This document shows, one piece after another, positions 20,123 through 60,908 of a stretch of DNA of 64,000 bases (its first letter is position 1; every line of letters starts with the position of its first letter). The notes below the pieces were generated by a model. The model made no database searches. It saw only the letters and a program-made list of their open reading frames with translations, and was not told where the DNA came from. Both the position numbers and the translations under genes were made by a program. Source of the stretch: Owenia fusiformis (Eukaryota; Annelida; Polychaeta; Sabellida; Oweniidae); the NCBI GenBank assembly GCA_903813345.2, contig CAIIXF020000001.1, positions 7,381,098-7,445,097 on the forward strand. Direction: 5' to 3'.

Positions 20123-22492
20123 TCAGATGAGGTTGTTCAACGCTCTTTCAATGAAACGATAAAAAATAACAGCACTAGATGTCCACATTGCAATGCAACT
20201 TGGCTACAATCAAACAACAGGGCTTCATTTAATAACACCAGCTTAGCTTCTAAATCAACAGCCACAATAGAATGCATGGAATCCCCTGGATGTAACAGAT
20301 TGACCCAATGGCTTTCTGCAACGACCGAGTCATCTTATGAGAACTTTACCTCTGACAAAAATGTCAATGCAGACCTACCTTCAGGTGTTTCAGGCCACAA
20401 GACATTCATCGTGCAAGACTTTTTTCGGGATCTTGAAGTATCAAGAGCTGAACTTATCATTGAGGTTACCATATTGGTTGTGTTAATGATTACTGGTGCC
20501 CCAAGTAATGCATTAATCATTTTTGTGCTGATTATATCAAAAAACTTGCGCAAATCAAAGGATTTTATGATTTTTAGCCTAGCTTTATCTGGTCTAATAA
20601 TTACCATAGTCACTCATCCAATATCCATTTACACTACTTATTTTGGAAATGGAAACTCTGAAGCAGTCGAAGGTCTTCTGTGTGATGTTGTCAGCCACTG
20701 TTTAGTAATAAGCATCGGCGCAACTTGGTATAGTTCTTCTCTTATGGCTCTAAATTGTTTCTATTCAACTCGGCCTCATTCAAAAATGCGAATAATATTA
20801 CAAAGCAGACTGTGTATTATATTTTTGTTGGTTCTTGCCTGGCTCATTCCCACTGTGATCACGGTCATACCTCACATTGCAGGGTACGCATTACCAGCTT
20901 ATGCTCCCGTATGGGGTGTCTGCCAAACTCTTATGCGTGCCCCTCGAAAAGAAAATATCACAAATAGTGCCATCATTGTAGTGGTATTTTTAATGGCTTT
21001 CAACATGATTGTATGCTCATTTTTCTATGCCAAATTGTTAGTATTCTTGTACAGGCGAACTGTTATATTTTCTAATAGTGCAGTACAGGGTCAGTTTGAA
21101 AGAACGTGTAAACAAATGATTCTCATGTTTTTCTTAATGGTAGTTTGTTTATTGCCATTGACCATTGTAGGATTTGTTGACCCGTTAATGATAAAGTTGA
21201 GCTCGATGCCTACTGTGTTTAACCGTCTGATTTTCTATATCTGCTTGGCAAATAGTTCAATCAACCCTTTTATCTATTTATTCAAACATAAAGATATTAG
21301 ACAGGCTGCCCTAAAATTTTGTTGCAACACTGCATCTGTGGCTATGCATTCACCTGCTATAGGTAATATGCTTCCCCTTGGATCTGTTGCCATGCCACAG
21401 TATGGATCTGTTGGTGAGCCACGAGAAGCAACTATCGGTGTGCTCAACCATGGATCTGTTGGTGAGCCACGAGAAGCAACTATCTGTGTGCTCAACCATG
21501 GATCTGTTGGTGAGCCACAAGAAGCAACTATTAGTGTGCTCAACCATGGATCTGTTGGTGAGCCACGAGAAGCAACTATCAGTGTGCTCAACCATGGATC
21601 TGTTGGTGAGCCACAAGAAGCAACTATTAGTGTGCTCAACCATGAATCTGTTAGTGAGCCACGAGAAGCAACTATTAGTGTGCTCAACCATGAATCTGTT
21701 AGTGAGCCACGAGAAGCAACTATCTGTGTGCTCAACCATGGATCTGTTGGTGAGCCACAAGAAGCAACTATTAGTGTGCTCAACCATGGATCTGTTGGTG
21801 AGCCACAAGAAGCAACTATTAGTGTGCTCAACCATGGATCTGTTGGTGAGCCACGAGAAGCAACTATTAGTGTGCTCAACTATGGATCTGTTGGTGAGCC
21901 ACAAGAAGCAACTAATAGTGTGCTCAACCATGGATCTGTTGGTGAGCCACGAGAAGCAACTATCGGTGTGCTCAACCATGGATCTGTTGGTGAGCCACAA
22001 GAAGCAACTATTAGTGTGCTCAACCATGGATCTGTTGGTGAGCCACAAGAAGCAACTATTAGTGTGCTGAACCATGGATCTGTTAGTGAGCCACGAGAAG
22101 CAACTATCGGTGTGCTCAACCATGGATCTGTTGGTGAGCCACGAGACGCAACTATTAGTGTGCTCAACCATGGACCTGTTAGTGAGCCACGAGAAGCAAC
22201 TATCGGTGTGCTCAACCATGGATCTGTTGTCAAGCCACATGAAACAACTATCGGTGTGCTCAACCATGGATCTGTTGGTGAGCTACGAGAAGCAACTATT
22301 GGTGTGCTCAACCATGGATCTGATGGTGAGCCACGAGAAACAACTATTGGTATGCTCAACCATGGATCTGTTGGTGAGCCACGAGAAACAACTATTGGTG
22401 TGCTCAACCATGGATCTGGTGGTGAGCCACATGAAACAACTATTGGTGTACCAACATACACTAATGTTGGTATGCCCCCATGTTATATATAA
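20051..22492 (+). CDS. Atypical class-A GPCR with 22-copy repeat tail
   Basis: The open frame encodes a plasma-membrane seven-helix receptor of unknown ligand. Residues about 30-130 are extracellular with several N-glycosylation sequons; helices run from about 135 to 412. Seen: helix-1 Asn (SNA, 153), a Cys pair for the extracellular disulfide (211, 291), helix-4 Trp (264), helix-7 NPFIY (405-409), and Cys-Cys after helix 8. Three usual activation residues are replaced: the helix-2 Asp is Gly (181), DRY is NCF (235-237), and the helix-6 Trp of CWxP is Leu (CLLP). The tail carries tandem 16-residue repeats. A pyrimidine-rich acceptor ending at 20122, with a CTAAC branch-like site at 20099, suggests the coding exon really starts at 20123 in phase 0, with an N-terminal exon upstream. 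The ATG at 20051 is therefore doubtful. Confidence 0.85.
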   Translation: MHVAHVCLIVLKKYTFLTKASFFQSDEVVQRSFNETIKNNSTRCPHCNATWLQSNNRASFNNTSLASKSTATIECMESPGCNRLTQWLSATTESSYENFTSDKNVNADLPSGVSGHKTFIVQDFFRDLEVSRAELIIEVTILVVLMITGAPSNALIIFVLIISKNLRKSKDFMIFSLALSGLIITIVTHPISIYTTYFGNGNSEAVEGLLCDVVSHCLVISIGATWYSSSLMALNCFYSTRPHSKMRIILQSRLCIIFLLVLAWLIPTVITVIPHIAGYALPAYAPVWGVCQTLMRAPRKENITNSAIIVVVFLMAFNMIVCSFFYAKLLVFLYRRTVIFSNSAVQGQFERTCKQMILMFFLMVVCLLPLTIVGFVDPLMIKLSSMPTVFNRLIFYICLANSSINPFIYLFKHKDIRQAALKFCCNTASVAMHSPAIGNMLPLGSVAMPQYGSVGEPREATIGVLNHGSVGEPREATICVLNHGSVGEPQEATISVLNHGSVGEPREATISVLNHGSVGEPQEATISVLNHESVSEPREATISVLNHESVSEPREATICVLNHGSVGEPQEATISVLNHGSVGEPQEATISVLNHGSVGEPREATISVLNYGSVGEPQEATNSVLNHGSVGEPREATIGVLNHGSVGEPQEATISVLNHGSVGEPQEATISVLNHGSVSEPREATIGVLNHGSVGEPRDATISVLNHGPVSEPREATIGVLNHGSVVKPHETTIGVLNHGSVGELREATIGVLNHGSDGEPRETTIGMLNHGSVGEPRETTIGVLNHGSGGEPHETTIGVPTYTNVGMPPCYI
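21404..22459 (+). repeat. Coding 48-bp minisatellite, 22 units
   Basis: The GPCR tail is encoded by 22 consecutive 48-bp units, consensus GSVGEPREATISVLNH. Units vary at few positions (R/Q/H, S/G/C, G/E) and the last is degenerate. Because 48 is a multiple of three, other frames on both strands also stay open, which yields several repetitive spurious ORFs. Each unit offers Ser/Thr sites, including R-E-A-T. Confidence 0.95.
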
Positions 22493-30400: not shown

Positions 30401-33400
30401 TGCAGTCACCACAAAATAACAAAAGATTTGAATATCAAAGAGGTTCATCCTATTCAATATAGATAGTAATCAGATTCAAGCTTTCAAACAATAATAATGC
30501 TTTTGATCATTGAGTATGTATTACAATAATCATTGTTATGTCACATACCTATAAAAGATGAATGACACAAAAAAGTTATCTTAAATATATTTTATGAACA
30601 TGTTAAAACATAGTTAATTGTTTCCAGATTGCTTCTATAAATAATCCGTATGACAACCTCAATTTAAACAGGTTCTAATAATTTGTGTATGACCAGGAAT
30701 TAAATTCTTAAACGTCCCAACAAAAATATGAATATTAATTATTAATTTATTGATCATCTTTATAGCCCTTGGCTACTTTCTAAATGGCAACTGAAACCAA
30801 GAATCTTAATCATATTTTAATGCTGTGTCTTAACTGTCTTAACATACCTTATTATTAGCATTATCATTATTATTATATAATCGTCATTATTATTACATAA
30901 TATTTAATTGATATGCTGTAATTAGCATAGCTGGCATGTAAAAATGTTACTTAAAATCAAATCTGTTCTTCAGAATATGAACATTTGCTCTGTGTTGTAT
31001 GTTATTTTGTCAAATGCCGCATCAGAAACAAGATTTGCCATGCCCACTTTTATACTCTTATTTGGGGTAGGGCACTAATGAGTGATAAAAAAAATTATTT
31101 TAAGATGTTCAACAAGTAAAATAATCATATCAAATTGTCAAACAGTCCTGGTAGATGATTTTAAAATACTAATATGTGTTATATTATGGTGCAACTTATT
31201 TCTAATCCTAGCAATGAAAAAAAGCATGGTAGAAAAATATAATCTTTTTTCCGTCATTTAGTATTCAGATGCTAATTTCTTAAAAATACAAAGAGATTTT
31301 GTTCCCAGTTTGGTTTACAATTGTTAAACAAGCATTTCCTCATATAATATCCAAAGGGTAGGTGTAGTCATGCAATCCATTTAACCTTATTAAGCCTCTG
31401 GTAGTGCTACTTCAATTAAAAGATAATTAATCACATGCTAATTAATTCGTTAATTTATTCATGTTCGGTCGCGGAACCAAATTTCACAACATATATTTTC
31501 AGTTAGCTGACATATTTTCCTACAATATGGTACCAAACACCACTTGTTATACCAGGTGGGTAGCAAACTTTTTTTTTAACCCCCTTATATTCAATTTGTC
31601 ATCCGGCTATAACTAAAATGGCTGAAAATAAAAGAAATGGACATAATTTTTTGCTGATCTTTTGTAACAAAATTATTATTCATACAACTACTCTTTACAT
31701 TGACATAGATTTTTACAATGCAGGACACCTGAAATTATTTGTAAAGCTAGGAAATGGGCCAAAATTAAATTTCACGATAAAAATGGCGACCATTTGAAAA
31801 TAGGCAAGCTTTTGAACCAGGAGTCATAGGGGAAATTTTGTATTGATGTTGAACAAAAATAAATTAAAACTATCCACAGAGGTTTTAAGGCAAATGGTCC
31901 AAAAGAGGATTTTGCGAGACAGATGGACAAATCAATGTTAACTGAAATGGCTGAAAATAAAAAAACGGATATAATTTTTTGCCGATTTTTGTAACAAAAT
32001 TATTTCATACAACTACTCTTTACAGTGACATGACTTCTTACAATGCAGGACACCTGAAATTATTTGTAAAGCTAGGAAATGGGCCAAAAGAGAATTTCTC
32101 GAGACAAGAATGGTGACCATTTTGAAAATAGGCGAGCTTTTGAACCAAGAGTCATAGTGGAGCTTTTTGTATCGATGTTGAACAAAAATAACTTAAAACA
32201 GGAATCCTATCGACAGAGATTTTATGGCAAATGGTCCAAAAGTGGATTTCGCAAGACAGATGGACAAATCAATGTTAACTAAAATGGCTGAAAAAAAAAT
32301 GGAAATAATTTTTTGCAGATTTTTTGTAACAAAATTATTTCATACAACTACTCTTTACATTGACATGGATTTTTACAATGCAGGACACCTGAAATTATTT
32401 GTAAAGCTAAGAAATGGGTCAGAAGTGAATTTCGCGAGACAAAAATGGCGACCATTTTGAAAATAAGTGAGCTTTTGAACCAGGAATCATAGTTTTCTGT
32501 ATTGATGTTGAACAGAAATAGCTTAAAACAGGAATCCTATCGACATAGGTTTTAAAACGTGCCACTTTTCTTGAGCAGAGTCCTATGTCCCTAATAAGGA
32601 CCAGCCTATAAAATTTGAACCAAATCCGGCAACTACTGTAGTATTTGAGATATCAAACATTCGTTAATTATGAAAAATGGTGGCCATTTTGAAAATGCCT
32701 CCTTGAGCAGATCTCCTTTGCCAACTATAAGATATTAGCCTATAAAATTTGGACAAAATTTCATTATTTGGTCCATAAATTGTATTTAAGTTATCATAAA
32801 CTACATATTTTATAAAAATGGTGGCCATTTTGAAATTCAGTTACTTACAGATATCTCTAATATAAAGCAGCATAGCAACAAACACATAGTCCACAAGGTC
32901 AAAGGTTGTACTCTCTGCAAACAAGGCATCCCACATGACTAGAAGATCCTGCATCGGAAACTCACGTCCAAACAACAGCCTGATCCAGCGTCTGAAACAT
33001 AATATTTACGTGCTACTTGTAGAATATCTTAAACATATACAAAATGGACAATCTGGAGAATATCACAGGAGACATTAACATCATCACCTGCCATTTATTA
33101 AGATGCCAAACACCAACTGCCAACCGCCAACCACAAAAAAGTTGGAGACTATAACAATGTAAAAAAACACTCATTAGCTATAGGCTCAAACTATTCATAT
33201 AGCAAGGTTTTGGAGATACATTTTGAGGTACCTTTGCTTTTTAATTTTGGAAATTTTTTTATCACTACCTTTTTTAAAATAAAGTAAAAGTAAAGGCAAA
33301 CTACAGTGAAAAATAATTGATAAGTCATACATTTGGCATGTTCTCTTGAATTTTAACATCTTATGTCCCAAACTCTTCCAAAGTGCAGAAAAGTGTACGC

Positions 33401-36400: not shown

Positions 36401-39400
36401 CAATTACGTAAAGAAATTGGGCTTTGATTTTCTTTGCAGTTCTACTTACTATGCATCATGTTCCAAATATTGTGGGTTGAGTACTTCTTTAACTAGTTCC
36501 CTAAAAATAATAAAAAGTAAAAACAATGTCATCGAATGTTACATACATGTACATGTTATATGTCATGAGGAAGTACATGGCCATGTATATATATAAGTTT
36601 GTGGTGTACATATTGAATACAAATATCAAGAATTTTAATAGTCTTGTTTCTTCTAAAGGCCATTTCTCAAAAAATTTGGAATATTGACTCATGAAATTAA
36701 ATAGTATTTTACAATATTATAATAGTTACATCATGAAAGACATTAAAATTCAGTAAAAGGAGTCTGTGATATTTGAGAAATGGGCCCCTGGATATAAAAC
36801 AATCTCCAGCATCAGTGTTCATTCTTGGATTTCTTCTCAACTATTCATTTATACAATATACTAAACTACTATATATTTCTACTCCATTGATCAATATAGA
36901 CTAATAGTATCTTATCTGAAGGAAAATTAAACAATCGTTTTCATTTTAAAGATGATATAATCAATGAATATGTAATTTTAGAGGGTTATCTCACACATAT
37001 TATAATCAGGCATTATTTGAAATCACACTCGGGAAATGATATCTGACTGGGATATAAGGCTTCTCTAGACTTCAACTGACATGGTTGTCAGTTCCAACAG
37101 GCATGTAGCCAGGGTGGTTCGAGCGAAACCCCCCCCCCCTGGCCAAAATTTCTTTCAAAATCATGCAGTTCTTCACCATTCTTAGTCTTACTATTTTTTT
37201 GTGATTTTTGGCCAAATTTGCCCAAGTGAACCCCCCAGAATTTTTGGGAAAAGTGAACCCCCCCTTGGAAAATTCTGGCTATGGGCCTGTCCAACCTCAT
37301 TGACCTCGTTCCTTCCACCCAAGCCACATTATCACAACGCGCAAATATCGGCTTTTAGCCGCAAACCACCAACTCTTCTCTCCTGAACTTATTTCTCCAC
37401 TCGCGTATTGAGACATTCGCGTTGTGAGAATGTGGTTCGGATGGAAGGAACGTGATCAACCATGTCAGAACTGATGATCGCGTGAGTCAAAGTCTACACA
37501 GCCAATATAATTCGCGCCGTTTTGGCATCGAAAAAATTCGGCGCTGTTCTGGCACCGTTCCGGCACCAAAACCTTTTGACACCAAAATTTGCCACCGGAC
37601 TAGTCAGTCCATTTGGTTCCGTTTCGGCACCGAAATTTGGAACCGAAACGGTGTCGAAAATCAGATTGCATTTTGGGGGTGTAGGAGACCTGAATATTAT
37701 GCACACTAATGCACATGTTAGTTATGTTTTTAATTATTTCATTATGCAAATTACATGTTACTTCAGTCAAGTGCATAGCTTCATGAAAATTTAAGTAATT
37801 TTCAGGTTTTAATCTCTCAGCCAGAATCGCACGGACTTAAAATTCAATCATGCAATATGCGTAACAAAATATATATTAAATGCTTTCACCATCAGGTTGA
37901 CCAAGACCCATTATTTAAACAAAAAAATGAATGGCTTAATTAAGTACATCTTATATCTTAATATGTGTAGGTTAATACTTTATTTAGCACACATCCAAAA
38001 CTGTTCCATTTAATAACATGATGAAGGTTAGGAAACAAAAGCTGCAAAATTTAAGCTAGAAAATGGAAAGAAGGGGTTAACATTTCCATAAATCCTGTTA
38101 AAGTAAAACCCTAGGTCACCAGGTGAGAACAATTTTTTGGTACAGTATGTCTTAGAAAAAATAAAAATTATGAAATGTTCCAATTATATGGAGAGTACAT
38201 GTATTGTAAATAAGGTAGGGTTAATCAAGTCTGATCCCCAAATTAAAAGTGGTTTTTTTTCTTGAAAATTGCTCAGTGGACTCAAACATTTTGAAGAATC
38301 AGAAAATGTGAACTTTACAAGTAGTGATATACATAATATATAGTACTCATATTTAGAGGTTATGCCACCATGACGTGAAATATGCCTGGGTTCTCCCAAT
38401 ATAAGCCGACCTTGGTAGGCTCTATATTTGGGCAAGAACGAAGGCATATTTCACATCATAGTGACATAACTGATGTATTACATACCTTTATTCCCTTGGC
38501 AACTTTGTATCAATGTGTCACACATTTGTGTGCTAGTAGAATTTGATGGAAATGAAGCATGACATCGTAATATTGTCATGGTTATTATAGAAATGGTTAT
38601 TATCTAATATCAAAATGAAGTAAGGGGGCTATAGCGAGGTAAACGGGCAATATCAGTGGATATAGCCCGCTAACTGTCCCATTCACTTCCATAAAAATGC
38701 TTCACTAGGTATGTAATACAAACAAATATGGGACTGAAAGGTGTTGACATATAAATGGAATATTTCATGAAACACTTGACCTAAAAGCCTTATATAGTTT
38801 CAGTTTGGTCTCTTCCACATTCAAGAACAAACCAAAACCATCAGATACAATTAAATAGCCTAGGGGTATGGGAAGAATAACTAAAGTATAAAGTGGCTAT
38901 ATATATATATTATTTAGCAGAAAATATAACTATATCAATTCAATATAGCCTCTTTAATCAAATAAAAAATAATTGTGTCTGGATCATATACCTTTGATGT
39001 TCACTTAATCCACTTCATAAAAGAAAAATGAAATAGTCTTTAAAAACTGAAAATCTAAGTTGCTATGGTACAATATTCAATGAAGGTAGTGGATTTCTCA
39101 ATGATGTGATATACAAAATGTGCATTTGTGGCATTCAAAAATATTTAGATAATTCCAAGTAGTCATCGAACAAAATATTTACAAAAACGTAAAGTCAAAT
39201 AAACTGTTTGTCTTGGGCAATAGTATCATTTGTATGTCTGAATTTGTTTTATTTCAGATGTTCCAGAAGTTCATTCTTTGGAATAATGAAATTTTAACTG
39301 CACATTACGTAAAGCAAACATCTGTAAGATGTCCAACATCCAAATATATAACTGAAATCAGGCACTGAGCTAAGAGACAGTCAACTGGTCTTTCTTTTGA

Positions 39401-42400
39401 AACTGACTAGCTGATATTTCATTACATGACACTGCAGCTGGTTTTTAAGACCACATTTACCAGCTGCTCTAAAATTCTTAGCAAAATCCCTGATTTATCT
39501 AAGTGTATACATATTTGTAATGAAAAGCAAACTGGTGTGTGAAAATAATCACATTATAACATATAAAAAGCATCATGTGAGATCAGTCACTGTTCAGTTC
39601 CTTTGTAGACATATTCAGTTCCTTTGTAGACATATTGATAGTTCGTAAAGAGAAATATAAATATGTACTGTACATGTAAACATATACATGTATTTTCTAC
39701 GCAAATATATACATGTACTGTATTAAAATGGCAAAGGTTACTTACGAGACTTGCTCCAGCTCTGTGGCATGTTCAAATGCTTGGTGATCACAATGTAGTA
39801 CAAATATGAATGGGGCCAATAACTCATGCATTCCCTGCAAAACAAAATACACATACAAGTACAAGGGGTGATCAAAAAGTAATGAACAAAATTTCATACT
39901 CATATTATGCCTGTAGAACAGAAAAAACATACATGTAGAACAGAAAACACATACATGTATTATGCATGTAGAACAGAATACACATACATGTATTATGCAT
40001 GTAGAACAGATTGTACTTCTGTTGATAACAAAGCATAGAGATCACAACTGACTTATGCAATCCAAATCAAAAACAGCTGATATGAAATATTACCATGTAC
40101 GAGTATTTTGTTTTTGGCTTGCAAATTTTAAATTTTATTTAATTTCATGGAAATATTTAGATGGCAAAATGTCATTGAATGCAATTCGTAAATGTAAAGG
40201 GTGACCCAAACAATGTATATAAAATAATTTCATCATTAGTCATTTTTCAATTGTATAATAATGGGCCCATGGTCATCAAATAAAAAATGGAAATAATGAA
40301 GCCTAGATCAAAAATAAAATAATGATCAGACACATGTGTAGTATCAAATAAATAATAAAATAAATAAACAAACAAAAAATATAAAACCACTAAAACCTTA
40401 AATAATAGTTTCTAGCCAGTTACCAAGACAACCTTAAATCATAGATTCTAGCCAGTTACCTAGACAACCATATAATACCTTAACATGAAGCATAATTATG
40501 TGAGAATTATGTAAATGGCGATGTTTTTCATATATTATTAATCCATGAATGAATAAGAACAATAAATAAAAAAAAAATGTTTTGTAAAAATTGAAGATAA
40601 CTACATCATCAAAATGGCAATAATCACAGACACCAATAGACTGGATGAGAGTAGAATACATATAATCTTGATTTATGTCATCAAATTCAGTCTAAGTGAT
40701 GTCATATTTGAAATCTAGAAACATGGTTTTGAAAATTGTTTATCAACTTTGAAAATTCAATTTTCTTTGAAAATGTGACTCCTAGGTCGGGTTGATTCTC
40801 CATTGACCCCATGTTGCAAAATCACATAAAGTGAAATATCCTTTCTTGTATTGGACAGATAACATTTTCTTTTACTGGACATACGAGTCACCTGGCAGTG
40901 AAACTGCTAACTACCTACTCGCATCTGCGTTATTCAGACTGAAGAAGTTAGATGAAGATTCAGACCTGTTTATAAGAAAGCTTGTGATGTTTACGACAAT
41001 GACAGAATAGAATGTTAACCATCATCTCTTCAATCTTTTCCTCCTTAAAGAATTCTATCTCAGGAAAACTAGAAATATATAAAATAAAACAAAATCATAA
41101 AACCACGCAATGATTAGGGGTGAGTTAGAAATGGCTCTTTGAGAATGTCAATGTAATAGTACAGTAAAACCTGTAAACGTTATTGCTCTATATTAAACAC
41201 CTTCATCAAAGATTCTAGAATTATGCAGGCAAAAAATTGAAATTATGCAGCAAAATGCAAAATTATACGGGGAAATGCAAATTATGTAGCCCGGCCCCAT
41301 TTTACCATATGGACTGCCATTTCCGGTATAAATGATTTAAACTTTTAGAGTTTTTGTTAATTTACCTAATATAATAATTATGAGGAAAATGAGCATTGAA
41401 ACATCAGGCGAGGTATTCTTTGAGAAAAGGGTAAATTATGCGCTGATGACTGAATTATGTGGCATTTCTAGAAATTCAAAATTATGCAAAATTAAAATGT
41501 GTCGCGTAGAAATGTAATTCTAGAATCTGTGCTTCATGTGTAAAGTACTGGTCCTAGATGCAATCACATGGTAACAGGTTATACTGTGAATAAAAATACT
41601 GGAATACAATGTATAAACAAGTAGATAGGGTCTCCAAACAAAAAGAACAGGTATTCCAATATTACTTATTTCTGATAGGACATCAATATGCTGCAACTTG
41701 TATGAAAACAATAAGTGATCGGAAGATGCCAGAGTTTGGTATTAATGGTATAACATTAAAAAACTGCATACCCAATGTACACATGCATGCTGGATAATGT
41801 GAATACACATAAGATTTGGAAATTAAAACCTGAAAAATCTAAAAAAAAATGATTATGACAATGTGATGATGCTTGCGACATGTACTACACTACAGCCGAT
41901 CTATGCTATAATCTACAATATAGCTAAAATCAAAATAAATAAAATCTACAAACTCAGATTTTGGGCTATCATCAAAACATATAATACAACATAATGTGAT
42001 TTCTAAAGAGTCACAAACTAATACTTGATAATCATAATCATATTTATGCTACTGTCTTTTGAGTCTGTCTACAGTTGTGAAATAAAGAAGTTCATTATAT
42101 TATGGGTATGGTGCAAATGATGGTTTTTATTAATGTAGAATATTGACATCAACTGCAAATCAACATTTTCAAAATTTTGTAAAAGGGGTTAAGCCATAAT
42201 GGAATTAACTTCTATTTTCTACAAATGTTGACAATTAGACACAATACCTTAAGATGAAACAGAATGTGGATTGAACAACAATAAGAGGCTTGCCATTATA
42301 TTGCTAGGACCTTAACCTTTTTCTGGGTTTGAATACAGAAGGAAAATGGCAACATTCAGTGGGCTCATATGTTGAAAAAGCTGAAGCAATAGCAACATCT

Positions 42401-45400
42401 GGGAAACATAGTGCAAATTACCAGCATGAAACCCATAAAATGGATATGAGCACTGGGTCACATAAATGGCAATTTTCATTGTCTGGATTAAAATAATATT
42501 CTGAGCCCAGGGTCAGTAAATTTTTACAAATTTATCATGGGATATATGTGAAGATTTATCAGGAAAAAATACTTTGAAAATAGGATCAAATTTTCCAAAA
42601 GTTTATGGAATTCTTTAAATTGTACAAATCACATTGATTGTGGTAAAAAGATAAGGTCCCCATAACATAATGATCCATCGCTAAATACAGAATAGTTAAT
42701 ACACTCATCATGCTGGTTCATCAATATACCTGTCTGTATTGCACACCAGGGTTTAGTTTAGCATATATGAACAGTGAATCCACCATCATGGTCCTTATAT
42801 GGTCCCCATGGAAGAACTCAATCTTAGGATACCTACATATACATTTACCATGAAACATATTGTAACACTAATCTATAGCTATTAGATAACATTTCTTCTT
42901 GGTGTCAAATTAATATAAAACATTTTGGGGCATTTTCAGCATTAAATGTTTCTAGGTATTGCCTCATATATAGTCTTTGGCAGTTGGTATGAATTTTAAC
43001 TCATGTACAAAAACATCTCATATTTAAAATAAAAAGATTATTTAGTAAAAATGCTCCACTTACGTTCGAACAACATCCTGTTTTATTGTGAGTCTCAATT
43101 CATTGTCAAGGAAGAAACGATTCCAAGGACTCTGGGAAGAAATAATGATAACATCATCTCAAAATACAGTCACAGTCAAAATTGTGAATAAATTAAGTAG
43201 TGAAACAAAAGCCAATAACCCAGATGCGAGTAGAAATAATCTTGATTTACGTCATTAAAAATCATATTTGAAATCTACATGTAAAATTACATCTAGAAAT
43301 GTGGTTTTAAAAAGTGTTTATCAACTTTGAAAAATTACTTTTCTTTGAAAATGTGACTTCTAGCTCGGGGAGATTCCCCACAGACCCCATGCTATAAAAC
43401 CACAAAAAATGAAATATCTTTTCTTCTAGTGGACAGATAATATTTTGCTTTACTGGACATATTTTCAGTAGTATAAGTATTAGACACATAAGGGTTATAT
43501 GAAAATTGAGCCACTTAAATTGATAATATTCAAGTTTAAGGGAACTTTCTTATATACCTGCCATGTTAATTGACCCGAATCAGCCACCTGGTGGTGAAAC
43601 TGGTAACTACCTACTCGCATTTGGGTAATTGATTTGAGTTGCTCAGTGCAAAAGGACCAAACACAAATTACATTTTTCATGCTTTTATAATAATTTCTGC
43701 ACTCCTGACATTTCGCAACTAGATAAGAAGAGAAAATCCTATGATCTATAATTGATATGATTTTTATCCATGAATGTGTATGTTCTACAACTATAGGTTG
43801 AGAAGTTCAATGTTGATCTCATAAATATTGATAAAGAATCTATTTACCTCATCAATTTGAGAGAGAGGGTTGTTCACCACTAGATTCTCCTCAACGCTAT
43901 CTGACCTTGGATTAATTATGTACTGCAATTAAAAGTTTTGATAAATATAGACAAGGCATTAACATGCAAAATGTCACCACCAGATATTTATTACAGATGC
44001 TGAACACAAGTAAAAGTGATATCGATATGATATCATTTTGAATACCTAATGATTAAAATAATGATTATTATTTACTTGTGATCTAGTTTATTATTACTGA
44101 AAAAGCGATAGCTGATCACTTTAAATGAATATCCTTAGTTTTATTATATTACACATGTATACTGGGTAAAAGTGGCAATATTGCTGAGATGAAAATTTAC
44201 TGCTTTTGCTCGAAATTCAAATTAACAAAAATTCCTTCTTCCTAAAATCATAAAATTATAATCCTCTAATAAAACAAAACAAAAAATTCTGGAATGTTAC
44301 AACCAGTGACCATAAAATTATTTTAGGCTATATTTCTTCTCATACAATATATGAAATTAGAGAATACCTTTCTCCTCATATGGTCATAGTCAGCCCTTCT
44401 TTGGCGTGTCTCAGAGATCCAATCATCGATGTTCTCTGGTAGAGTCTCCAAGTATAACTGAAATATGTTGAAATATCCATTGCAACTTTTTTCAACTCAA
44501 AATTCAGTTTCTGTATGAAATATTGTATGACTAGCACTACTTCCAAAAATGAAACTCAAAATGTTTATTTTTCTACTTTCACCTGTCAAAAAGGTTGGAA
44601 ATGTTCACAGATAATTCAATAATTAATTCTAATTAAAATTCAACAATGGCAGAACACTCTCATAAAAACAAATTGTGTATCTTCTGTTCATATAGATCAC
44701 TCAAAAGTGAATAGTTTTGGGTAAAAAAAACTGCAGTGTTAATATTTGTAATAGTTTTATGACTGGATCCAATGATCAATAGTGTTATGTCCTTCCCTTG
44801 TTAGGCTGAACTTCAGGTCATGAATTCAATGTACATTGTAGTCCCAATATGTAATTAACAACAATTCAGAATGAATCTCTGATATCCTCCAAAAAATGTC
44901 ATTGAAGATTTATTGATCATTTTCAAATCAAACAACATCTCTTAAACAATGTGTACCTAACAAAACTTGACTATCATCCTCTCCCAAACCTAATTAATTA
45001 TTTTGGCATATGTCAATATTTGACTATTTCCCCCAAGAAAGTTTCCTTTTTTATATGTACCTTCCAACAGACACTTCTGAATCTACTGCTACGTAAGTTG
45101 CCCTCCAGACCTTGTAGCTTCAGATCTTTCAAGTAGTTGGGACAATGGAACATCCTATCCCACTCAGCACTGAAACATTGGAAAGACATGTAGCCCTTGG
45201 GCAACACTTTTTAAAGATTTGCATCTCCAAAAATAACCTGTCTATAATATTTTACTCTTAGTCTCTATGTTTCAGGGTAGTCTAATGTCAGGAAAAGATC
45301 CTTGTTTCTAGTCAGCCAAAGTTTAAGTTTAACACTTGTCCAATAGGTCTTCTATTTAGAAATTTTTGGATTTCTAGCACAAAGCTGGATCAATTGAAAA

Positions 45401-47353
45401 GTTAAGCTTTCACTTGTAGCTTGTCGCAAATGCAACTTTCAGCTATCAGTTACCAGATTAACCTAATATTTTATGATGACCATCTCATTTAATTAAATAG
45501 GAATGGAATAGTGGCAGGTACTATTCATATTTAAATGAGTTGACCATAACAAAGTAGGATAATCCGGTAGCCTACAGCCGAAAGTTGCATTTGTGAATAC
45601 AAGCTAAATCTTACCTATAAATATGTATATTTAGAGACAGTGTGAAAACAATTCATTTAAATACATGTTTTATATTTTAAGTTTGTATACTGTATTTTGT
45701 ATATTCATCATCATGATAACTTGATTTCTTCAATATATTGAAAAGCTAGTGTGAGCTGAAAACCCATGATTATACTACACAAAAGTAATATTTACCTATA
45801 GCTGTTAGAATGACTAGATCTTCTTGACGAGTTTTGAGAATTCAACATATCTGTTTTCTTCCCTGTTTCTATGGCAACTGTTGCATCCTCAACCAATACC
45901 ATTCCATTTTCAGTTTGACTGGTTATCATAACATTGCGCTCTGAAACACACGATCATCTTGACAATGAATAACATCCTTTTTATATAAAAGCACTGAATC
46001 CCACATTTCATTACATATTATTTTTTTCGTATTTCTCGCTTCGATGATGACTTTTGAGAGTCTCTCCGGTCTCCAGTTAAATCAAGATTAATGATTTTCT
46101 ACTGAAGATAATTCCAATGAGCTACACATACAGTCTGCACCTGATTCTATAATGCCAATTGAGAGGATTTGTATGATGTAGTACTATCAATTCATACTGC
46201 TATTACCAGTATATAGCTCTGAATGCAATAATATATAGTAATTCCTATTATTGATAGGAGATGCGGGCTTATTTGGAGGTCACCATAAACCCATATCATA
46301 TTTTGCAATGAGGAAATTCAAAATAGCTGGCATTAACCTGGTATAGCCTTTTTATTTTTTCGTGAAGCCACTCAGTAAAATTTCTCTGCAACCTGATGTC
46401 CAATCAAGATCATTCAAGTATCTATGTGTTCCTGATTCGTTTGGGCGTCCGAGAATAACAACGTCTACAAAAAGTTTGCACGCGAAATTGACGTAATTCA
46501 TGACTGAAATCGGGAAGACAAAATTTGAGATTCACAAACAAAATTGCTTGTGAAAATTATTTACAAAAGTGTTCCAGAGACTCTTATCTACTTGGCTAAG
46601 GTTTTATTTGAAGATACATTGCCGTATTAAGCAGGTAGAGGGGCATACAGGACACAGAAGCAAATGCTATGTTGAAAATGTGTCTTGGGAACATTTTTGT
46701 AGATAGTTATTATAAACAATTCTGAAAGAATATCACATATTTTTGTCTTAACAATTTCAGTCATGAATTACGTCAATTTCGCGTGCAAACATTGGGTAGA
46801 AGTTGTCATTAAGGGATGCCCAAACGTGTCAGGAACACATTAATACTCGAATGATGTTGATTGGACTTCAGGGTGCAGAAAAATCGTAATTTTACTGAGT
46901 GGCTTCATGAAAAAATAAGCAGCACTTTAAGCCAAAAATTAATCAAGCTAAAAACCTTGGTCATGAATAAGAAAAAGAAAACTGATCACAATACTGTATA
47001 GCACCCAAGGGTGTGATAAAATTGCCTAAATAAAGTACCTATTGTCCCTATACTCACACAGTTCTGTATTCCATACTATATGAGCCTATGGACACAAAAT
47101 GTGACTTTAGACATCAAAATTCCCATTAACATTTGACAGATTCTAAGGATTAAATTTTGAAGTTTAAAACACATAGTCAAACAAAAATTCATACCATGAA
47201 ATAAAATTTATAATAAAGGCATTCAAAAGCAAACTTAACCATGTACAAACCTTGGACAGGTGAAGGTTCAAAGCTATCAATAGCCGAGAGGATGTCTTCA
47301 TGTGAGGCTGGGTTTGGAAGAGCCTCATTTTGCCGCAGCTTGGACTTACTCAT
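24304..47353 (-). CDS. TBC1D5: TBC1D5, Rab GTPase-activating protein (13 exons, C-terminus not found)
   Basis: Thirteen minus-strand exons with GT-AG borders and continuous phase encode 443 residues matching the N-terminal half of animal TBC1D5. Family knowledge: TBC1D5 inactivates Rab7, binds retromer through VPS29 and acts in endosome and autophagy traffic. Coding exons from 5' to 3': 47353-47251, 45940-45796, 45169-45061, 44457-44368, 43922-43848, 43131-43064, 42832-42730 (or 41068-40966), 39834-39746, 36500-36450, 35429-35360, 34190-34015, 32991-32849, 24410-24304. Seen: VNNPLS, like the VPS29-contacting loop; the Arg finger in QDVVRT (196); the Gln finger (231) in YRQGMHE; and GREFP...LLVMWDALFA. 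The exons for the coiled-coil and LIR-rich C-terminus were not found and may lie beyond the window. The GPCR on the opposite strand would then lie in an intron or just downstream. Confidence 0.93.
24480..25222 (+). mobile_element. Repeat element family B
   Basis: Ends are GCCCACCGAA at the left and TTTCGGTGGG at the right, inverted. A GGACGGACAGACGGACGG tract lies inside the right end. The interior holds imperfect tandem units with AAATATGAACAAAATCG, CTCCACTACTTTTC and AATGGTGGCCATTTTT. Confidence 0.65.
25248..25660 (+). mobile_element. Repeat element family A, copy 3, left part
   Basis: Begins with GTACCGTGGGTACTGG and GCTCACATGGTG and contains one core unit up to CAATGTTAA. There it is interrupted by the 5.95-kb DNA transposon. 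The rest of the element resumes at 31611. Confidence 0.75.
26481..27232. repeat. Three nearly identical tandem units of about 253 bp
   Basis: Units start at about 26481, 26735 and 26988 with TAACTAATTAGTGTAACCCT and differ by only a few bases. Shorter, older degenerate repeats with ATTAATTGG and ACCCTTACAAAT precede them from about 26100. They form a subterminal region of the transposon. Confidence 0.92.
27223..29390 (-). pseudogene. Broken transposon gene: PIN-like domain plus Cys-rich tail
   Basis: Successive minus-strand frames, from N to C: 29390-29124 (AEAIPWFFVAGKINYAGK), 29029-28844, 28700-28476 (RLLLVSKDRDVDLQQVL, VPPSLFNDDGTIRKT), 28288-27770 (SHEEADIMLILH, CDDIDVFVLLVHY, HVLTGSDTTYALHRIGKRTA), 27750-27508 (TLDDLRFVL, GLPPTEDAFKQHV) and 27468-27223 (Cys-rich, LTCIPICACHD). 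The acidic blocks EEAD and DDxDV plus GSDT resemble the metal-binding Asp/Glu pattern of PIN/FEN nucleases. The whole layout matches an abundant, poorly characterised invertebrate and fish gene family. At least one frameshift (near 28380) and stops make this copy inactive. The nuclease role is an inference. Confidence 0.7.
29629..30270. mobile_element. 642-bp mariner-type foldback MITE
   Basis: Ends CAGGGTGTCCCGAAAGTATG and the inverse are flanked by TA on both sides (29627-29628 and 30271-30272). Pairing extends far inward: CACATAACTAGTCAATGTGT and AACAGCAGCAATT on the left have inverted partners on the right. The element is almost entirely two arms. It interrupts the upstream part of the transposon gene region. 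Confidence 0.88.
31611..32572 (+). mobile_element. Repeat element family A, copy 3, right part
   Basis: Resumes with TAACTAAAATGGCTGAAAAT, directly continuing the left part at 25660, and holds about two further core units. The right terminus is missing; the sequence switches near 32573 to another repeat. Confidence 0.72.
32573..32840 (+). repeat. Two tandem units of an unrelated repeat next to TBC1D5 exon 12
   Basis: Two imperfect units of about 130-140 bp share AGCCTATAAAATTTG, AATGGTGGCCATTTTGAAA and GAGCAGA words. They are similar in style to element B cores. The second ends 9 bp from the exon 12 donor. Confidence 0.55.
32849..32991 (-). CDS. TBC1D5: TBC1D5 coding exon 12
   Basis: 143 bp. 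It encodes RWIRLLFGREFPMQDLLVMW and DALFAES...FVAMLLYIRD, the conserved end of the TBC domain. Its donor side abuts a repeat at 32573-32840. Confidence 0.95.
33060..34000 (+). repeat. Fragments of repeat family F in a TBC1D5 intron
   Basis: At about 33060-33165 and 33930-34000, fragments contain GCCAAACACCAACTGCCAA or GCCAAATGCCAGCC followed by AAAAAAGTTGGAGACTATAA. These words also occur near the right end of the element at 34563-35152. The sequence between them is unremarkable. Confidence 0.45.
34015..34190 (-). CDS. TBC1D5: TBC1D5 coding exon 11
   Basis: 176 bp. It encodes VIVTKLNIIQSEILSEHDME followed by LYNHLEKYEIAPQVYG, a close match to the human domain. Confidence 0.95.
34563..35152 (+). 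mobile_element. Repeat element family F with tandem core
   Basis: The left end has AAGGCATTAACATG and AAATGTCACC; the right end has ACTTTTGGTGGTGACATAA, giving an inverted GGTGACAT pair. The core is about four imperfect units of roughly 120 bp with TTGAAGGTCAAATCT, TCAGATTTGAACTTC and AAGCAAGTTGAAAA. A short complete copy lies at 50328-50465 and a left-end fragment at 43954-44015. Confidence 0.65.
35360..35429 (-). CDS. TBC1D5: TBC1D5 coding exon 10
   Basis: 70 bp. It encodes ALFCKVMDTVEPWYVSRD, matching the human VFSQLMETAEPWF segment. Confidence 0.92.
35450..36128 (-). mobile_element. TTAA-flanked MITE, copy 1, carrying an insertion
   Basis: Begins TTAAAGGCCCACT and ends GGGCCTTTAA; TTAA at each end fits the target duplication of piggyBac- or Kolobok-type elements. 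It is closely similar to the reverse complement of 52390-52880, differing chiefly by a 180-bp insertion at 35766-35945. No coding capacity is apparent. Confidence 0.8.
35766..35945 (+). mobile_element. Short retroelement-like insertion with hammerhead-like motif
   Basis: Flanked by a 12-bp direct repeat TTGATAAATAAA (35754-35765, 35934-35945). The sister MITE at 52390-52880 shows the unfilled site. At 35816-35843 it contains CTGACGA, a 6-bp stem GGATGT/ACATCC with a 4-base loop, then GAAA, which is the core of a hammerhead ribozyme. Such motifs are known in Penelope-like and other retroelements. A short ATT-repeat tract lies near the 3' side. Stems I and III were not resolved. Confidence 0.55.
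36129..37076. other. TBC1D5 intron DNA around exon 9
   Basis: Apart from exon 9 (36450-36500), no repeat or gene was recognised. Confidence 0.4.
36450..36500 (-). CDS. TBC1D5: TBC1D5 coding exon 9
   Basis: 51 bp. It encodes ELVKEVLNPQYLEHDA with conserved LNPxYLEHDAY, split by the donor TA/GTAAGT. Confidence 0.92.
37077..37690. repeat. Foldback sequence with nested short repeat and GC-richer words
   Basis: CTGACATGGTTG at 37077 and its inverse near 37460, plus GTTCCTTCCACCC/GGATGGAAGGAAC and CACAACGCG/CGCGTTGTG, form inverted arms. A widespread short repeat (GTAGCCAGGGTGG ... TGGCTATGGGCC) sits inside the left part at 37095-37290. To the right (about 37510-37680), TTTGGTTCC/GGCACCG words recur in both orientations. 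Confidence 0.5.
37691..38356. other. TBC1D5 intron DNA, nothing recognised
   Basis: No repeat or coding signal was identified. Confidence 0.35.
38357..38720. mobile_element. Hairpin element followed by short inverted-repeat element
   Basis: At 38357-38470, GTGAAATATGCC pairs with GGCATATTTCAC, making a roughly 110-bp hairpin; a related hairpin is at about 61120-61195. Directly after it, TGTATTACATACCT (38474) and AGGTATGTAATACA (38720) form a second inverted pair enclosing about 220 bp. Confidence 0.5.
38721..40633. other. TBC1D5 intron DNA with small repeats
   Basis: Apart from exon 8 it holds a 23-bp direct duplication (CAGTTCCTTTGTAGACATAT, near 39597-39645), a lone mariner-type end (GGGGTGATCAAAAAGTAATG near 39866) and a small ATGCATGTAGAACAGA minisatellite (about 39910-40015). 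Otherwise nothing was recognised. Confidence 0.4.
39746..39834 (-). CDS. TBC1D5: TBC1D5 coding exon 8
   Basis: 89 bp. It encodes GMHELLAPFIFVLHCDHQAF followed by EHATELEQV and is nearly identical to the human segment right after the Gln finger. Confidence 0.95.
40634..40935. mobile_element. MITE family G, copy 1
   Basis: Closely related to 43213-43631, sharing AATCTTGATTTAYGTCAT, TTTGAAAATGTGACT and AACTACCTACTCGCAT. The ends are inverted (GGATGAGAGTAG and CTACTCGCATCT). It ends 30 bp from exon 7b of TBC1D5. Confidence 0.72.
40966..41068 (-). CDS. TBC1D5: TBC1D5 exon 7, version b (alternative twin)
   Basis: 103 bp, the same length and phases as version a. The acceptor is TTTCTAG and the donor CAG/GTCTGA. 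It encodes FPEIEFFKEEKIEEMM then VNILFCHCRKHHKLSYKQ. About 14 of 35 residues match version a and about 15 match human TBC1D5. Joining a to b would read TTT TCC TGA, an immediate stop, so the two must be used one at a time. The GTCTGA donor is weaker than the others. Confidence 0.82.
41210..41528. mobile_element. MITE with perfect 14-bp ends
   Basis: AGATTCTAGAATTA at 41210-41223 and its exact inverse at 41515-41528 enclose about 290 bp with repeated AAATTATGCA words. It lies in the intron between exon 7a and exon 7b, 142 bp upstream (in transcript sense) of exon 7b. Confidence 0.65.
41529..42729. other. TBC1D5 intron DNA between exons 7a and 7b
   Basis: No further repeat or exon was recognised. 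The distance leaves room for splicing control elements, which cannot be identified by eye. Confidence 0.35.
42730..42832 (-). CDS. TBC1D5: TBC1D5 exon 7, version a
   Basis: 103 bp, enters in phase 2 and leaves in phase 0. It encodes YPKIEFFHGDHIRTMM then VDSLFIYAKLNPGVQYRQ and ends exactly on the Gln-finger codon (231). It is one of two equal-length alternatives. Confidence 0.9.
43064..43131 (-). CDS. TBC1D5: TBC1D5 coding exon 6 (arginine finger)
   Basis: 68 bp. It encodes SPWNRFFLDNELRLTIKQDV then VR and two bases of the next codon. The Arg (196) is the catalytic finger of the IxxDxxR motif. The exon ends in phase 2 and can join either exon 7 or its twin. Confidence 0.93.
43213..43631. mobile_element. 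MITE family G, copy 2
   Basis: Ends ACCCAGATGCGAGTAG and CTACTCGCATTTGGGT are inverted and extend outward as CAAT/ATTG, with two mismatches in 21 bp. It lies in the intron between TBC1D5 exons 5 and 6. Confidence 0.78.
43848..43922 (-). CDS. TBC1D5: TBC1D5 coding exon 5 (VPS29-loop)
   Basis: 75 bp, 25 codons. It contains INPRSD and VVNNPLSQ. The NPLS loop corresponds to the segment that in mammalian TBC1D5 contacts VPS29 of retromer, so retromer binding is probably conserved. Confidence 0.92.
44368..44457 (-). CDS. TBC1D5: TBC1D5 coding exon 4
   Basis: 90 bp, 30 codons, phase 0 at both ends. It encodes LYLETLPENIDDWISETR and continues the first helices of the TBC domain. Confidence 0.9.
45061..45169 (-). 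CDS. TBC1D5: TBC1D5 coding exon 3
   Basis: 109 bp. It encodes AEWDRMF...LQGLEGNLRSSRFRS and VCWK. This matches the start of the TBC domain (human: GINGQLRSSRFRS, ICWK). Confidence 0.93.
45796..45940 (-). CDS. TBC1D5: TBC1D5 coding exon 2
   Basis: 145 bp, acceptor TTTCAG and donor TATAG/GTAAAT. It encodes a low-conservation, Ser-rich linker ending SSRRSSHSNSYR before the TBC domain. Confidence 0.75.
46352..46917. mobile_element. Foldback element with about 190-bp arms
   Basis: Left arm words GAAGCCACTCAGTAAAATT, GTCCAATCAA, ATGTGTTCCTGA and CACGCGAAATTGACGTAATT all recur inverted in the right arm in mirrored order. The central spacer is about 190 bp. No transposase was seen. Confidence 0.85.
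46981..47019 (+). repeat. Right-end fragment of element family D
   Basis: ACTGATCACAATACTGTATA then GCACCCAAGGGTGTGATA resembles the right terminus of element D at 15297-15330. Only this end remains. Confidence 0.5.
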
Positions 47354-47459: not shown

Positions 47460-48619
47460 CTGAAAAAATAAATAGATTAGATTAAGATATTTCTGAGTTC
47501 TAATATCAAGCCTCTCCTATGCAACCTGCCTCAAAGGTCCATGTGCAGTATGGCAAGTGATTTGAGATGGCCATATCTTTCACAATGAGTACTTTCTGGG
47601 CAAAAATACAGTGGTTTTTATTAAAACAATATGTTTTCTTTACAGTGAAGTTCACATGATGATAAAAATATCAATCGAACAATTCGAAAAATTATAAATA
47701 GGGACCCAAGTCAACGATTTTTTCAAAATGTTGAACTTATTTGCTCAAAAGAGGATCCTCTTTTTCTGATTTTTATTGCATGAAAACAATATTCAACAAG
47801 GGGTCTAAAACATTGGCAAATTACCACTTTGTGTAAAACTATCATAAAGTAAAAAAATGAATATTTTGCATGAGGCTTAGATAGTCTTCAATTCTTTGTT
47901 TCCCATCAGGTGAAAAAACATTATTTTCTTGTTCTTGTACTATCTGTATTGCTATTGAGATTGTCCCCGTTGATCATCTCCGTCGCAATACAGAAAATAT
48001 TGGTACGGAGGGGACAATCTCAGTAGCAATACAGAGGATCACACAATAAAAACGTTATTGAATGAGACGAAGTCTAGTGCCAATACAGAATATCGAGACA
48101 GAATATATGCTGTATTGCACTTCAAATCATTCAATAACTTAAAGTATAGAAATCCTATCATTCATAAATCTTAGAATATTCTCTATTAACATTTATTTTC
48201 AGATACCTCATTCATTGTGCTACATCATTGGTAGCGAGAAACACCCTCTAATAAATTAATTTTGCAGAGCAATGTTTCAATAATACTCAATACATACTCT
48301 TCTATTGTGAATACCAAGTAAATTTAACCTGTGCAAGTGGAACACCTTTGGTTCTTCAGAACAGTATTCCACTTGAGGATTTGAACTATGTATTGTTGAA
48401 TATAAAACACTGATAACGAAAGCAAACCCCTTTAACAGCAACAGAAAATTTGTAAATCAATATTGAATTCTAATGTCATTATGACCTGCCATTTTGATCA
48501 CGGTACGGCTAATTTTAAACAGTAAGAACAACATTAGGAGGGCAAGTATACAGCAAAAGCAGTGTAGCAGTAATGAGGAATCAATATTTTATGTTCTCTG
48601 AAACAGCTCAAAAACTTTG
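47460..48619. promoter_or_regulatory. Head-to-head intergenic region of TBC1D5 and the cGAS-like gene
   Basis: About 1.2 kb separates the two start regions, which are transcribed apart. It contains two hairpins. At about 47949-48045, CTGTATTGCTATTGAGATTG then TCCCC pairs with GGGGACAATCTC and AGCAATACAG. At about 48052-48143, GTTATTGAATGA pairs with TCATTCAATAAC. A TATA box or CpG-rich core is not obvious, so the promoter role is positional inference. Confidence 0.4.
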
Positions 48620-50032
48620 ATGCCAAAGAGAACTCTGCCTCAGAAAGCCCAGCAATTATCAAAGAGAATAACAAGATCACAGAGCCGTACCCTAGCATTT
48701 GAAAGAAGGCTGACTAATTTTATTACAACTTTACATAACAGGATCAAACTTCAGGACAATGCTAAAGACCTTGATAATCATCAGAGATACGTCCATGATA
48801 CTGTCCAAACTATTTGTAATAAACTAGGAGAGCAATTCCCAACATTCAAAATTCAGGATTGTGGTATTCTACCAAATGGAAGCTATTACCACAAGACAAA
48901 GATACTGAAAGCTGATGAGTTTGATTACCTGATCCCTCTTGCTCTTGCATTAGACAAAGATGTTGCCATTCAACACAAGTCCATCACAAAGCTTGAAGTA
49001 GACATCCTAAGTGACACCCTAATTGATGTCATGAATGCAACATGCAGTGAACTTAAGACAGTCAAGATAAATGCTGTAAAGGATGGCAAACTACCAGTTG
49101 GTATCACTAAATATCTCCGTAAAGCTATTGCTAAATGCTTAACTATACTGCACCATGAAGGCAAGCTTGACTATAAAGGTGAGACAGATATGCGAGATGA
49201 TTCTTCAGGCAAATCTGAGATGTTATTGGACAAACAGATTGAACTGGACACAGGTCTCCATGGCCCATGTGTAAGATTAAGGCTCAGTGGCCCATTGTGT
49301 GTGGCCGATGTCGACTTAGGATTCTGTATGATTATACCCAAATCTAACACAAATGGTGGTTGCTACGTCGCTTTACCAATCCAACCTAACTGGGTGAAGT
49401 CCTTTTATGAATACCCAGAGAATTGTAGAGTCGATCAGCATCATTGTATGATTGTTATGACATTGAAATACATGATACATGTATGTAATAAAGATCTTCC
49501 AACATGTTACAGCTCTTTTGCAATAACTACGATTGTCCATAACCACCAGAGAAAATGTAACATGGAAGACCATGCAGGTAAAGAAAGAACATTAGGGAAT
49601 TGCTTGCGTGATATAGCAAACTTTATGTTCAAAATTAGTGGCTTAAAAGAACATGGCAATACAGTAACAGTTGGCAGGAAATGGGAAAATGATCTGCCAA
49701 ATATTGACATCAAAAGGGTAAATCTGTTTGAATCGTTTTGGGTAATGGATCAATTATTTACACTGTTTCTCTATACATGGCTTGAATTCCTGAAATCTTC
49801 TGATGAAAAAAAATATTCAAGTGAAAGCTATTGTCAACAACTTAAAACACTTTGTCAAAATATCACACTTGAGTTTATTAAGGAGAATAAGCTCCAATAT
49901 CCAGAAAAGTGTGAAAAAATTTCTATGGAAGATCCGTATGAAATTCTCAATCACCTTTCCTCTCATCTGTCAATTTTATCACAAAAAGAGATCACATTAT
50001 ATATAGGCAATTTAATAAAATACTGTACATGA
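48620..50032 (+). CDS. cGAS/Mab-21-like nucleotidyltransferase (cGLR candidate)
   Basis: A single-exon gene of 470 residues. Enzymes of this family join nucleotides into cyclic dinucleotides on sensing nucleic acid; Mab-21 relatives are inactive. Seen: a basic N-terminus (residues 1-30, rich in K/R), the nucleotidyltransferase loop GSYY (87-90), the acidic pair E100-F-D102 in ADEFDYL, and a third acid in ADVDLGF (D232). This spacing is close to human cGAS (GSYYEHV ... NEFDVM). With all three acids kept, it is probably an active cGAS-like receptor. The usual cGAS zinc ribbon is not evident, so the ligand is open. The first ATG is at 48620. An acceptor-like CTGAAACAG just upstream (48606) could mean a spliced 5' leader. 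The gene is divergent from TBC1D5. Confidence 0.85.
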   Translation: MPKRTLPQKAQQLSKRITRSQSRTLAFERRLTNFITTLHNRIKLQDNAKDLDNHQRYVHDTVQTICNKLGEQFPTFKIQDCGILPNGSYYHKTKILKADEFDYLIPLALALDKDVAIQHKSITKLEVDILSDTLIDVMNATCSELKTVKINAVKDGKLPVGITKYLRKAIAKCLTILHHEGKLDYKGETDMRDDSSGKSEMLLDKQIELDTGLHGPCVRLRLSGPLCVADVDLGFCMIIPKSNTNGGCYVALPIQPNWVKSFYEYPENCRVDQHHCMIVMTLKYMIHVCNKDLPTCYSSFAITTIVHNHQRKCNMEDHAGKERTLGNCLRDIANFMFKISGLKEHGNTVTVGRKWENDLPNIDIKRVNLFESFWVMDQLFTLFLYTWLEFLKSSDEKKYSSESYCQQLKTLCQNITLEFIKENKLQYPEKCEKISMEDPYEILNHLSSHLSILSQKEITLYIGNLIKYCT

Positions 50033-59696: not shown

Positions 59697-60038
59697 GTAA
59701 GTTTGGCCAATTCAGGCCAATTCATTGTCATATCTCATCTACCTTTCTTCAAATCAAACTTTGAATGAATTTTGAAATTCAGGAGGTATTTAGACATTTT
59801 CTACAAAATCTGTTAGATCTCATATTCAACTTTATGACAGAAACATAGATTTTTATTATTGTGCCAAATGTGGATGAAGAGTATAGCAGGCTATATGTAT
59901 CTTGCCTCTTTTTTGAACAGGTTTGGGAATATTTTTGCCTTGTCGCTTATTTCTTCCTGGCTATGCCACTGTGCAGTACTAGTAAATGTACTTTTTAGTA
60001 TGTTTATTTTGTATTTTTCAGACAAACAAGGGATAATT

Positions 60039-60908
60039 ATGGCATCAAATACACAGGAAACTCAAGAGTCAAAGTCAGGGGAAAATGACAATGTGTCTAA
60101 TAAATCTAACAACTTTGACTCCATCGCCATTAGTGTAGATGACACAAAAGACAGTAGCGATGATGTCACTGATACATCAAGTATGTTGCGGAAGAAAAAA
60201 CAGCGTCCAAAATCTGAGAGTGTTTTAGGTGATAACCGTGTCAATAAACAGTCAACTCTTAAACGTGCATCAGATGGAAACTGCGATGAAGATGCCCTTA
60301 ACGAGAGTTTAGATTCAGCACGACGTAGGATTGTAACTATGACAGGGACCATTACAAGAGGGAACCAGATAGGACAGACAGTGGACGTTGAGCTGAAACT
60401 ATCACAAGATGAGCTCAGGAAATTAAACCAAAGTTTTGACAGTGAGGATGATGATCCAAATCCTGATTGCGTTTGGGGGCCAAAAAAGGGACTTCATATT
60501 TTTCTATTCACGTTATTGGTCATCCCTGTAGCACTTGTGTTATCATTTTGTGTGGCTTTCTATATGGGGATCATGATGTGGTATAACATGTTCATATACT
60601 TCAGTGAAGAAAGAACAATCTGGCATAAGATATTCATATGTCCTTTACTTATATTATTCTTGCCATTTCTTATTGTTCTAGTCTCACTTGGGATAGGCTT
60701 ATATGCCTGCATTATACAAATCTCATGGTGGTTCCGCAGCTGGAAGCGGGAAATTCGTGACTACGAAAAGGGATTTTATGGTTGGATCTGTAACAAGCTA
60801 GACATTGCAGAATGTTCGCCATATGAAGTTGTAATCCTGGATGAATCTCAACTTGATTTACAGACTCCTCTACAGCAAACTGAAGCTACTGCTCAATCTG
60901 CAGTCTAA
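60039..60908 (+). CDS. TMEM169: TMEM169, two-pass transmembrane protein
   Basis: 289 residues, close to the 297 of human TMEM169. The protein is a conserved animal membrane protein whose role is poorly defined. The N-terminal 95 residues are acidic and Ser-rich. Then come the family motif VTMTGTITRGNQIGQ (99-113), helix 1 (about 151-177), WYNMFIYFSEERTIWHKI (181-198), helix 2 (about 199-226), and the signature DYEKGFYGWICNKL (241-254) followed by CSPYEVV. The human sequence shares YVTLTGTITRG and EKGFCGWLCSKLG. The frame is open upstream to 59859, but a TTTTTCAG acceptor at 60021 and conservation favour the ATG at 60039. The whole coding sequence is in one exon. The neighbours are unrelated. 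Confidence 0.95.
   Translation: MASNTQETQESKSGENDNVSNKSNNFDSIAISVDDTKDSSDDVTDTSSMLRKKKQRPKSESVLGDNRVNKQSTLKRASDGNCDEDALNESLDSARRRIVTMTGTITRGNQIGQTVDVELKLSQDELRKLNQSFDSEDDDPNPDCVWGPKKGLHIFLFTLLVIPVALVLSFCVAFYMGIMMWYNMFIYFSEERTIWHKIFICPLLILFLPFLIVLVSLGIGLYACIIQISWWFRSWKREIRDYEKGFYGWICNKLDIAECSPYEVVILDESQLDLQTPLQQTEATAQSAV

Follow-up and report, generated by a model that had tools for sequence, protein, structure and literature searches.

In a 64,000-nucleotide stretch of DNA from the annelid Owenia fusiformis, referred to here as the window, the gene for TBC1D5 very probably carries a tandem-duplicated and maintained pair of mutually exclusive coding exons. The two alternatives, exon a (positions 42730-42832) and exon b (40966-41068), lie on the minus strand and encode two versions of one segment of the RabGAP-TBC domain. 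We propose that an exon spanning the residue just past the catalytic Arg up to and including the catalytic Gln was duplicated, and that both copies would have remained functional TBC-domain segments as their surfaces diverged. Each transcript would then carry exactly one copy, with the products of double or zero inclusion presumably removed by nonsense-mediated decay. Both isoforms would be retromer-recruited Rab7-type GAPs that differ in the surroundings of their active sites.

The host of the exon pair is, as judged by its recognizable exons and motifs, an animal TBC1D5 gene. The orthologue is encoded on the minus strand at about 45.9 to 24.3 kb of the window, and its exons were found in order by tblastn with pieces of human TBC1D5 as queries. 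Following a tentative first coding exon (45796-45929), whose provisional start is an ATG at 45929, the gene model contains two constant exons of the N-terminal region (45061-45169 and 44368-44457), a constant exon (43848-43922) that encodes the larger part of the VPS29-binding loop (NNPLSQIDE), and the constant exon upstream of the pair (43064-43131), which encodes the catalytic Arg (VVR) and supplies two bases of the Thr codon that follows. Downstream of the pair, a constant exon of 89 nt (39746-39834) starts with GMHELL, including a His that matches human H207. A constant exon from later in the TBC domain (32853-32990) shows 78% identity with the human query over the matched span. When the domain is spliced together, its match to the Pfam RabGAP-TBC profile spans positions 47-210 of 216.

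Other diagnostic features of the protein are also in place. Specifically, the VPS29-binding loop is present as NNPLSQIDESPWNRFF, with its central Leu after Pro and then a Trp when compared with the loop that attaches human TBC1D5 to the retromer subunit VPS29 (PMC5105194). The loop Leu (131) and the catalytic Arg (158) are 27 residues apart in this partial gene model, in which residues are numbered from the tentative ATG and the gene's 5′ end is provisional. The Arg and Gln fingers of the RabGAP-TBC domain had been given as R196 and Q231 in the first-pass annotation; in the partial model they become R158 and Q193, with the spacing of 35 residues unchanged. An equal spacing separates the fingers R343 and Q378 of Gyp1 (PMC3676764). 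The annelid protein resembles human TBC1D5, a GAP that turns off Rab7, a regulator of membrane traffic, and a ligand of retromer (PMC5105194, PMC12889811), in its TBC domain, its NNPL loop, the 35-residue Arg-Gln spacing and the His of GMHELL.

Several other features of the window lie on the plus strand. An open frame at 19955-22489 encodes a rhodopsin-type seven-transmembrane domain (Pfam 7tm_1, E 4e-18) and, after it, a tail built of many near-identical repeats, each about 14 residues long; this tail also matches Bflower_2. The uninterrupted 733-residue frame at 8429-10627 contains a reverse transcriptase domain (RVT_1, E 7e-36) and is a LINE-like element, and the open frame at 59838-60905 contains a TMEM169 domain (E 1.5e-53). 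A 476-residue open frame at 48602-50029 has no Pfam match at 0.001; by eye, we presume a resemblance to Mab-21/cGAS-like proteins.

Both alternative exons have the geometry expected of interchangeable parts. Their common length of 103 nt, entry in phase 2 (after two bases of the Thr codon) and exit in phase 0 were all confirmed on the minus-strand sequence, and each exon is flanked by AG on its 5′ side and by GT on its 3′ side. Either exon fills the slot from the residue after the Arg finger through the Gln finger, which is its last residue (YRQ in exon a, YKQ in exon b), and the gene model bears out the earlier claim that the catalytic Arg is encoded in the preceding exon. The 35-residue products, TYPKIEFFHGDHIRTMMVDSLFIYAKLNPGVQYRQ from exon a and TFPEIEFFKEEKIEEMMVNILFCHCRKHHKLSYKQ from exon b, are identical at 14 of 35 residues, in agreement with the previous estimate of about 40%. 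Their ungapped BLOSUM62 score of 74 compares with a best score of 37 among 200,000 shuffles. When grouped by codon position, nucleotide identities are, in the order listed, 18/34, 21/34 and 13/35. An assembly or haplotype duplicate is ruled out by the fact that the copies agree at just 52 of 103 nt. A search of all six frames of the window revealed no third copy scoring at least 25.

The reading frame permits either exon but not both. Joining a to b yields ...CAG TTT TCC TGA, so that translation of exon b ends in its third codon, in accord with the TTT TCC TGA of the first-pass annotation, and skipping both exons also shifts the frame, such that neither joint inclusion nor joint skipping gives an in-frame product. 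It had further been claimed that this frame logic enforces the use of one exon or the other. The claim stands insofar as both and neither are out of frame, but the frame does not prevent double splicing itself: the double-spliced product is a likely target of nonsense-mediated decay, and frame logic acts only at that level. No classical physical bar to a-b joining is evident from intron length or splice-site type. Both exons use GT-AG sites and, at 1661 nt, the intron between them is long enough to be spliced, so exclusion is not imposed by its size. A length that is not a multiple of three, as in this pair, is usual among mutually exclusive exons: of the human clusters in PMC5740500, it holds for 377 of 629 (60%), and joining reads were seen in 83 (22%) of those 377.

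Competing RNA structures might set the choice between the exons, as an addition to the exclusive pair rather than a replacement for it, and we raise this idea tentatively, regarding it as rather unlikely. A docking site that pairs with a selector B would loop out exon b, such that a is used, whereas pairing of the docking site with a selector A would leave b exposed; the duplication would have copied the exon together with its selector. The candidate for these selectors is a 23-nt element noticed post hoc in a repeat search. Copy A (42243-42265, minus strand) lies 464 nt downstream of exon a, and copy B (40474-40496, minus strand), identical to A at 20 of 23 positions, lies 469 nt downstream of exon b. 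When the alignment of the two introns is confined to a band of equal offsets, scores as good arise in 0 of 1000 shuffles at a tolerance of 5, 1 of 1000 at 10 and 4 of 1000 at 20, and in wider bands in 0 of 300 (tolerance 40) and 2 of 300 (tolerance 100). At a tolerance of 0, where the element falls outside the band, there is no outstanding match. The equal-offset score is 15.5 for this intron pair and at most 10.0 for the other 20 of the 21 intron pairs, whose borders are approximate by a few bases. Against the idea, an alignment free of the offset restriction ranks a T-rich match first, and this match is equalled by 5 of 200 shuffles.

A candidate docking site (41529-41550, minus strand) in the a-b intron emerged from a scan of the pre-mRNA for partners. 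Read from 41550 to 41529, it can pair with either copy of the element, at -20.4 kcal/mol with A and -22.2 kcal/mol with B. That one site should pair with both copies favors competition: results as good come from 2 of 300 joint-column shuffles of both copies and from 3 of 438 target shuffles. However, each energy is ordinary when taken singly (single-element null mean -20.6, lowest -26.9), and the global minimum-energy fold prefers 41198-41213 as the partner of the docking region (-22.6 kcal/mol). A 27-nt inverted repeat within the a-b intron (41541-41515 with 41223-41197, 81% complementary) takes in part of the candidate docking site and supplies the partner selected by the global fold.

Precedents for competing structures likewise point both ways. 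As in Dscam exon 6, 14-3-3zeta and MRP1 (PMC6071210), duplicated intronic elements could compete for one complementary site, and the model in that paper, in which docking/selector systems arise by duplication of an exon together with one stem arm, predicts duplicated arms of this kind. Unlike in those genes, the candidate docking site here lies between the two exons and is known from the sequence of one genome. The docking sites described in PMC6071210 stand to the left or right of a cluster and not inside it, and no excess of pairing was seen there between internal introns. Moreover, competing structures of this type leave unexplained how exon a is skipped when b is used.

The introns around the pair hold some further features. 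The copies of the 23-nt element differ at three positions whose distances are multiples of three, and the element has AAG|GT at its end, which prompted us to consider whether it closes a second exon pair; this reading fails because copy B has a stop directly upstream in the frame that puts the changes at third positions, and because no residues are lacking between the Gln finger and GMHELL. Neither similarity upstream of the two exons nor long helices between the three introns (10 shuffles per pair) rose above shuffled controls, and Rfam matches in 38500-46000 numbered zero. Diverged copies of a repeat with a 171-nt core that is 85% identical occupy the introns flanking the pair, at 43204-43640 and about 40654-40934. 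Terminal inverted repeats (30 nt, 80%) in the first copy recall a short DNA transposon, and no inverted ends were found for the second. The terminal motif of this repeat occurs 3 times in the window, with 0.2 occurrences expected.

Several measures indicate that both members of the exclusive pair have been maintained as protein-coding exons. Both are open and TBC-like: the Pfam RabGAP-TBC match scores 50.6 bits when the slot is filled with X, and rises to 92.8 bits with exon a and 96.9 bits with exon b, gains that agree within about 4 bits. On its own, exon a has no Pfam match, and exon b reaches 17.2 bits, which is under the cut-off. When neutral drift was simulated to the observed DNA divergence, none of 4000 runs that started from b, and none of another 4000 that started from a, reached the observed BLOSUM score, and thus neutral decay does not account for the likeness of the two copies. 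Of the drift runs, 9% (from b) and 13% (from a) were free of stops. Considered by itself, the excess of identity at codon positions one and two is marginal (4-5% of drift runs). No relative was found in the viral and prokaryote collections scanned.

By comparison with other TBC proteins, exon b is the more canonical copy. In phmmer searches, b outscores a for 10 of the 11 TBC chains common to both PDB listings, the exception being TBC1D14, and b has 15 of 35 residues in common with the human segment as compared to 13 of 35 for a. The divergence between a and b is about as large as that of either from human, which suggests that the duplication is old or that exon a has evolved fast.

These differences, together with its splice sites, raise the possibility that exon a is vestigial or hardly used, such that only exon b is spliced in practice. 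A small matrix, derived from six donors and five acceptors within the gene, was used to score splice sites. By this measure, exon a has an acceptor that ranks only in the 38th percentile of 383 AG dinucleotides, with a score of -1.6, whereas the five real acceptors, each left out in turn, score from 1.9 to 6.4. This poor acceptor is the best argument for little use of exon a, and the closer likeness of b to other TBC proteins (10 of 11 phmmer comparisons, the Pfam bits and the residues in common with human) points the same way. Nevertheless, we consider a disused exon a improbable: it retains an open frame, the exact length and phases and a strong donor (98th percentile of 401 GT dinucleotides), it improves the TBC match as much as b does to within about 4 bits, and simulated drift from b never produced the a-b likeness (0 of 4000). 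Exon b, for its part, has a fair acceptor (90th percentile) and a middling donor (80th), and the opposite weaknesses of the two exons would fit regulated exons.

It is highly improbable that one exon is mainly a poison exon that tunes TBC1D5 level through the premature stop of the a-b join, since such an exon would need no protein conservation, yet a and b keep their TBC character, even though joining a to b does bring translation to a stop in the third codon of b and could be favored by a strong donor on a and a better acceptor on b, and joining reads are found in 83 of 377 human clusters whose lengths are not divisible by three (PMC5740500).

To our knowledge, human TBC1D5 has a single version of the segment that is exchanged in the exclusive pair. 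Mutually exclusive exons that arose by tandem duplication form a known class, and a search of the literature by titles and abstract starts turned up no report of an exon-swap pair in TBC1D5, although isoforms of this sort may already figure among the predictions in invertebrate gene annotations. Likewise, the main texts of two human surveys (PMC5740500, PMC9741552) contain no words beginning with TBC. Like the human tandem sets in those surveys, the annelid exons are adjacent, homologous and equal in length and phase, and their joint inclusion breaks the frame. They differ from these sets in that the swap falls between two catalytic residues of a Rab GAP, and in being recognized from DNA sequence alone. 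Skipping of a human TBC1D5 exon (PMC10615768) and exclusion of a TBC1D5 exon (PMC8370746) have been reported, and the available portions of both papers mention no exon swap. The words exon and splice are absent from the available text of PMC7182434 on fly TBC1D5.

The two proteins would have in common the loop that binds retromer and the two catalytic residues, and would differ between the fingers. Altered Rab choice, as proposed in the first-pass annotation, is a possible consequence of the exon swap. A second possible effect is an altered response to pH. We take the Gln finger of human TBC1D5 to be Q204; since the His of GMHELL stands three residues beyond the Gln finger, it would correspond to human H207. 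This residue is encoded in the constant exon at 39834-39746, and hence would be present in both isoforms. A preprint reports that a conserved His beside the fingers, H207 in human, mediates the loss of TBC1D5 activity at acid pH (PMC12889811). The swapped segments give this His different neighbors and add His residues of their own, two in exon a and three in exon b.

Taken to its furthest extent, the arrangement might produce two Rab GAPs by mutually exclusive splicing, with the inter-exon docking site captured by whichever selector wins, and with swapped residues, histidines included, lying beside the reported pH-sensing His such that Rab7 or a second Rab is switched off at a different endosomal pH. 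We offer this combined scenario as a speculation that is unlikely to hold in full.

If the intronic elements hold up, the gene would provide a minimal, two-exon case in which duplication of an exon and a stem arm created mutual exclusion. If the exclusive pair operates as proposed, a Rab GAP that is rewritten exactly between its catalytic fingers would constitute a natural experiment on what determines the Rab choice, rate or pH response of TBC domains, and splicing would diversify the endosomal timing of Rab7 and retromer.
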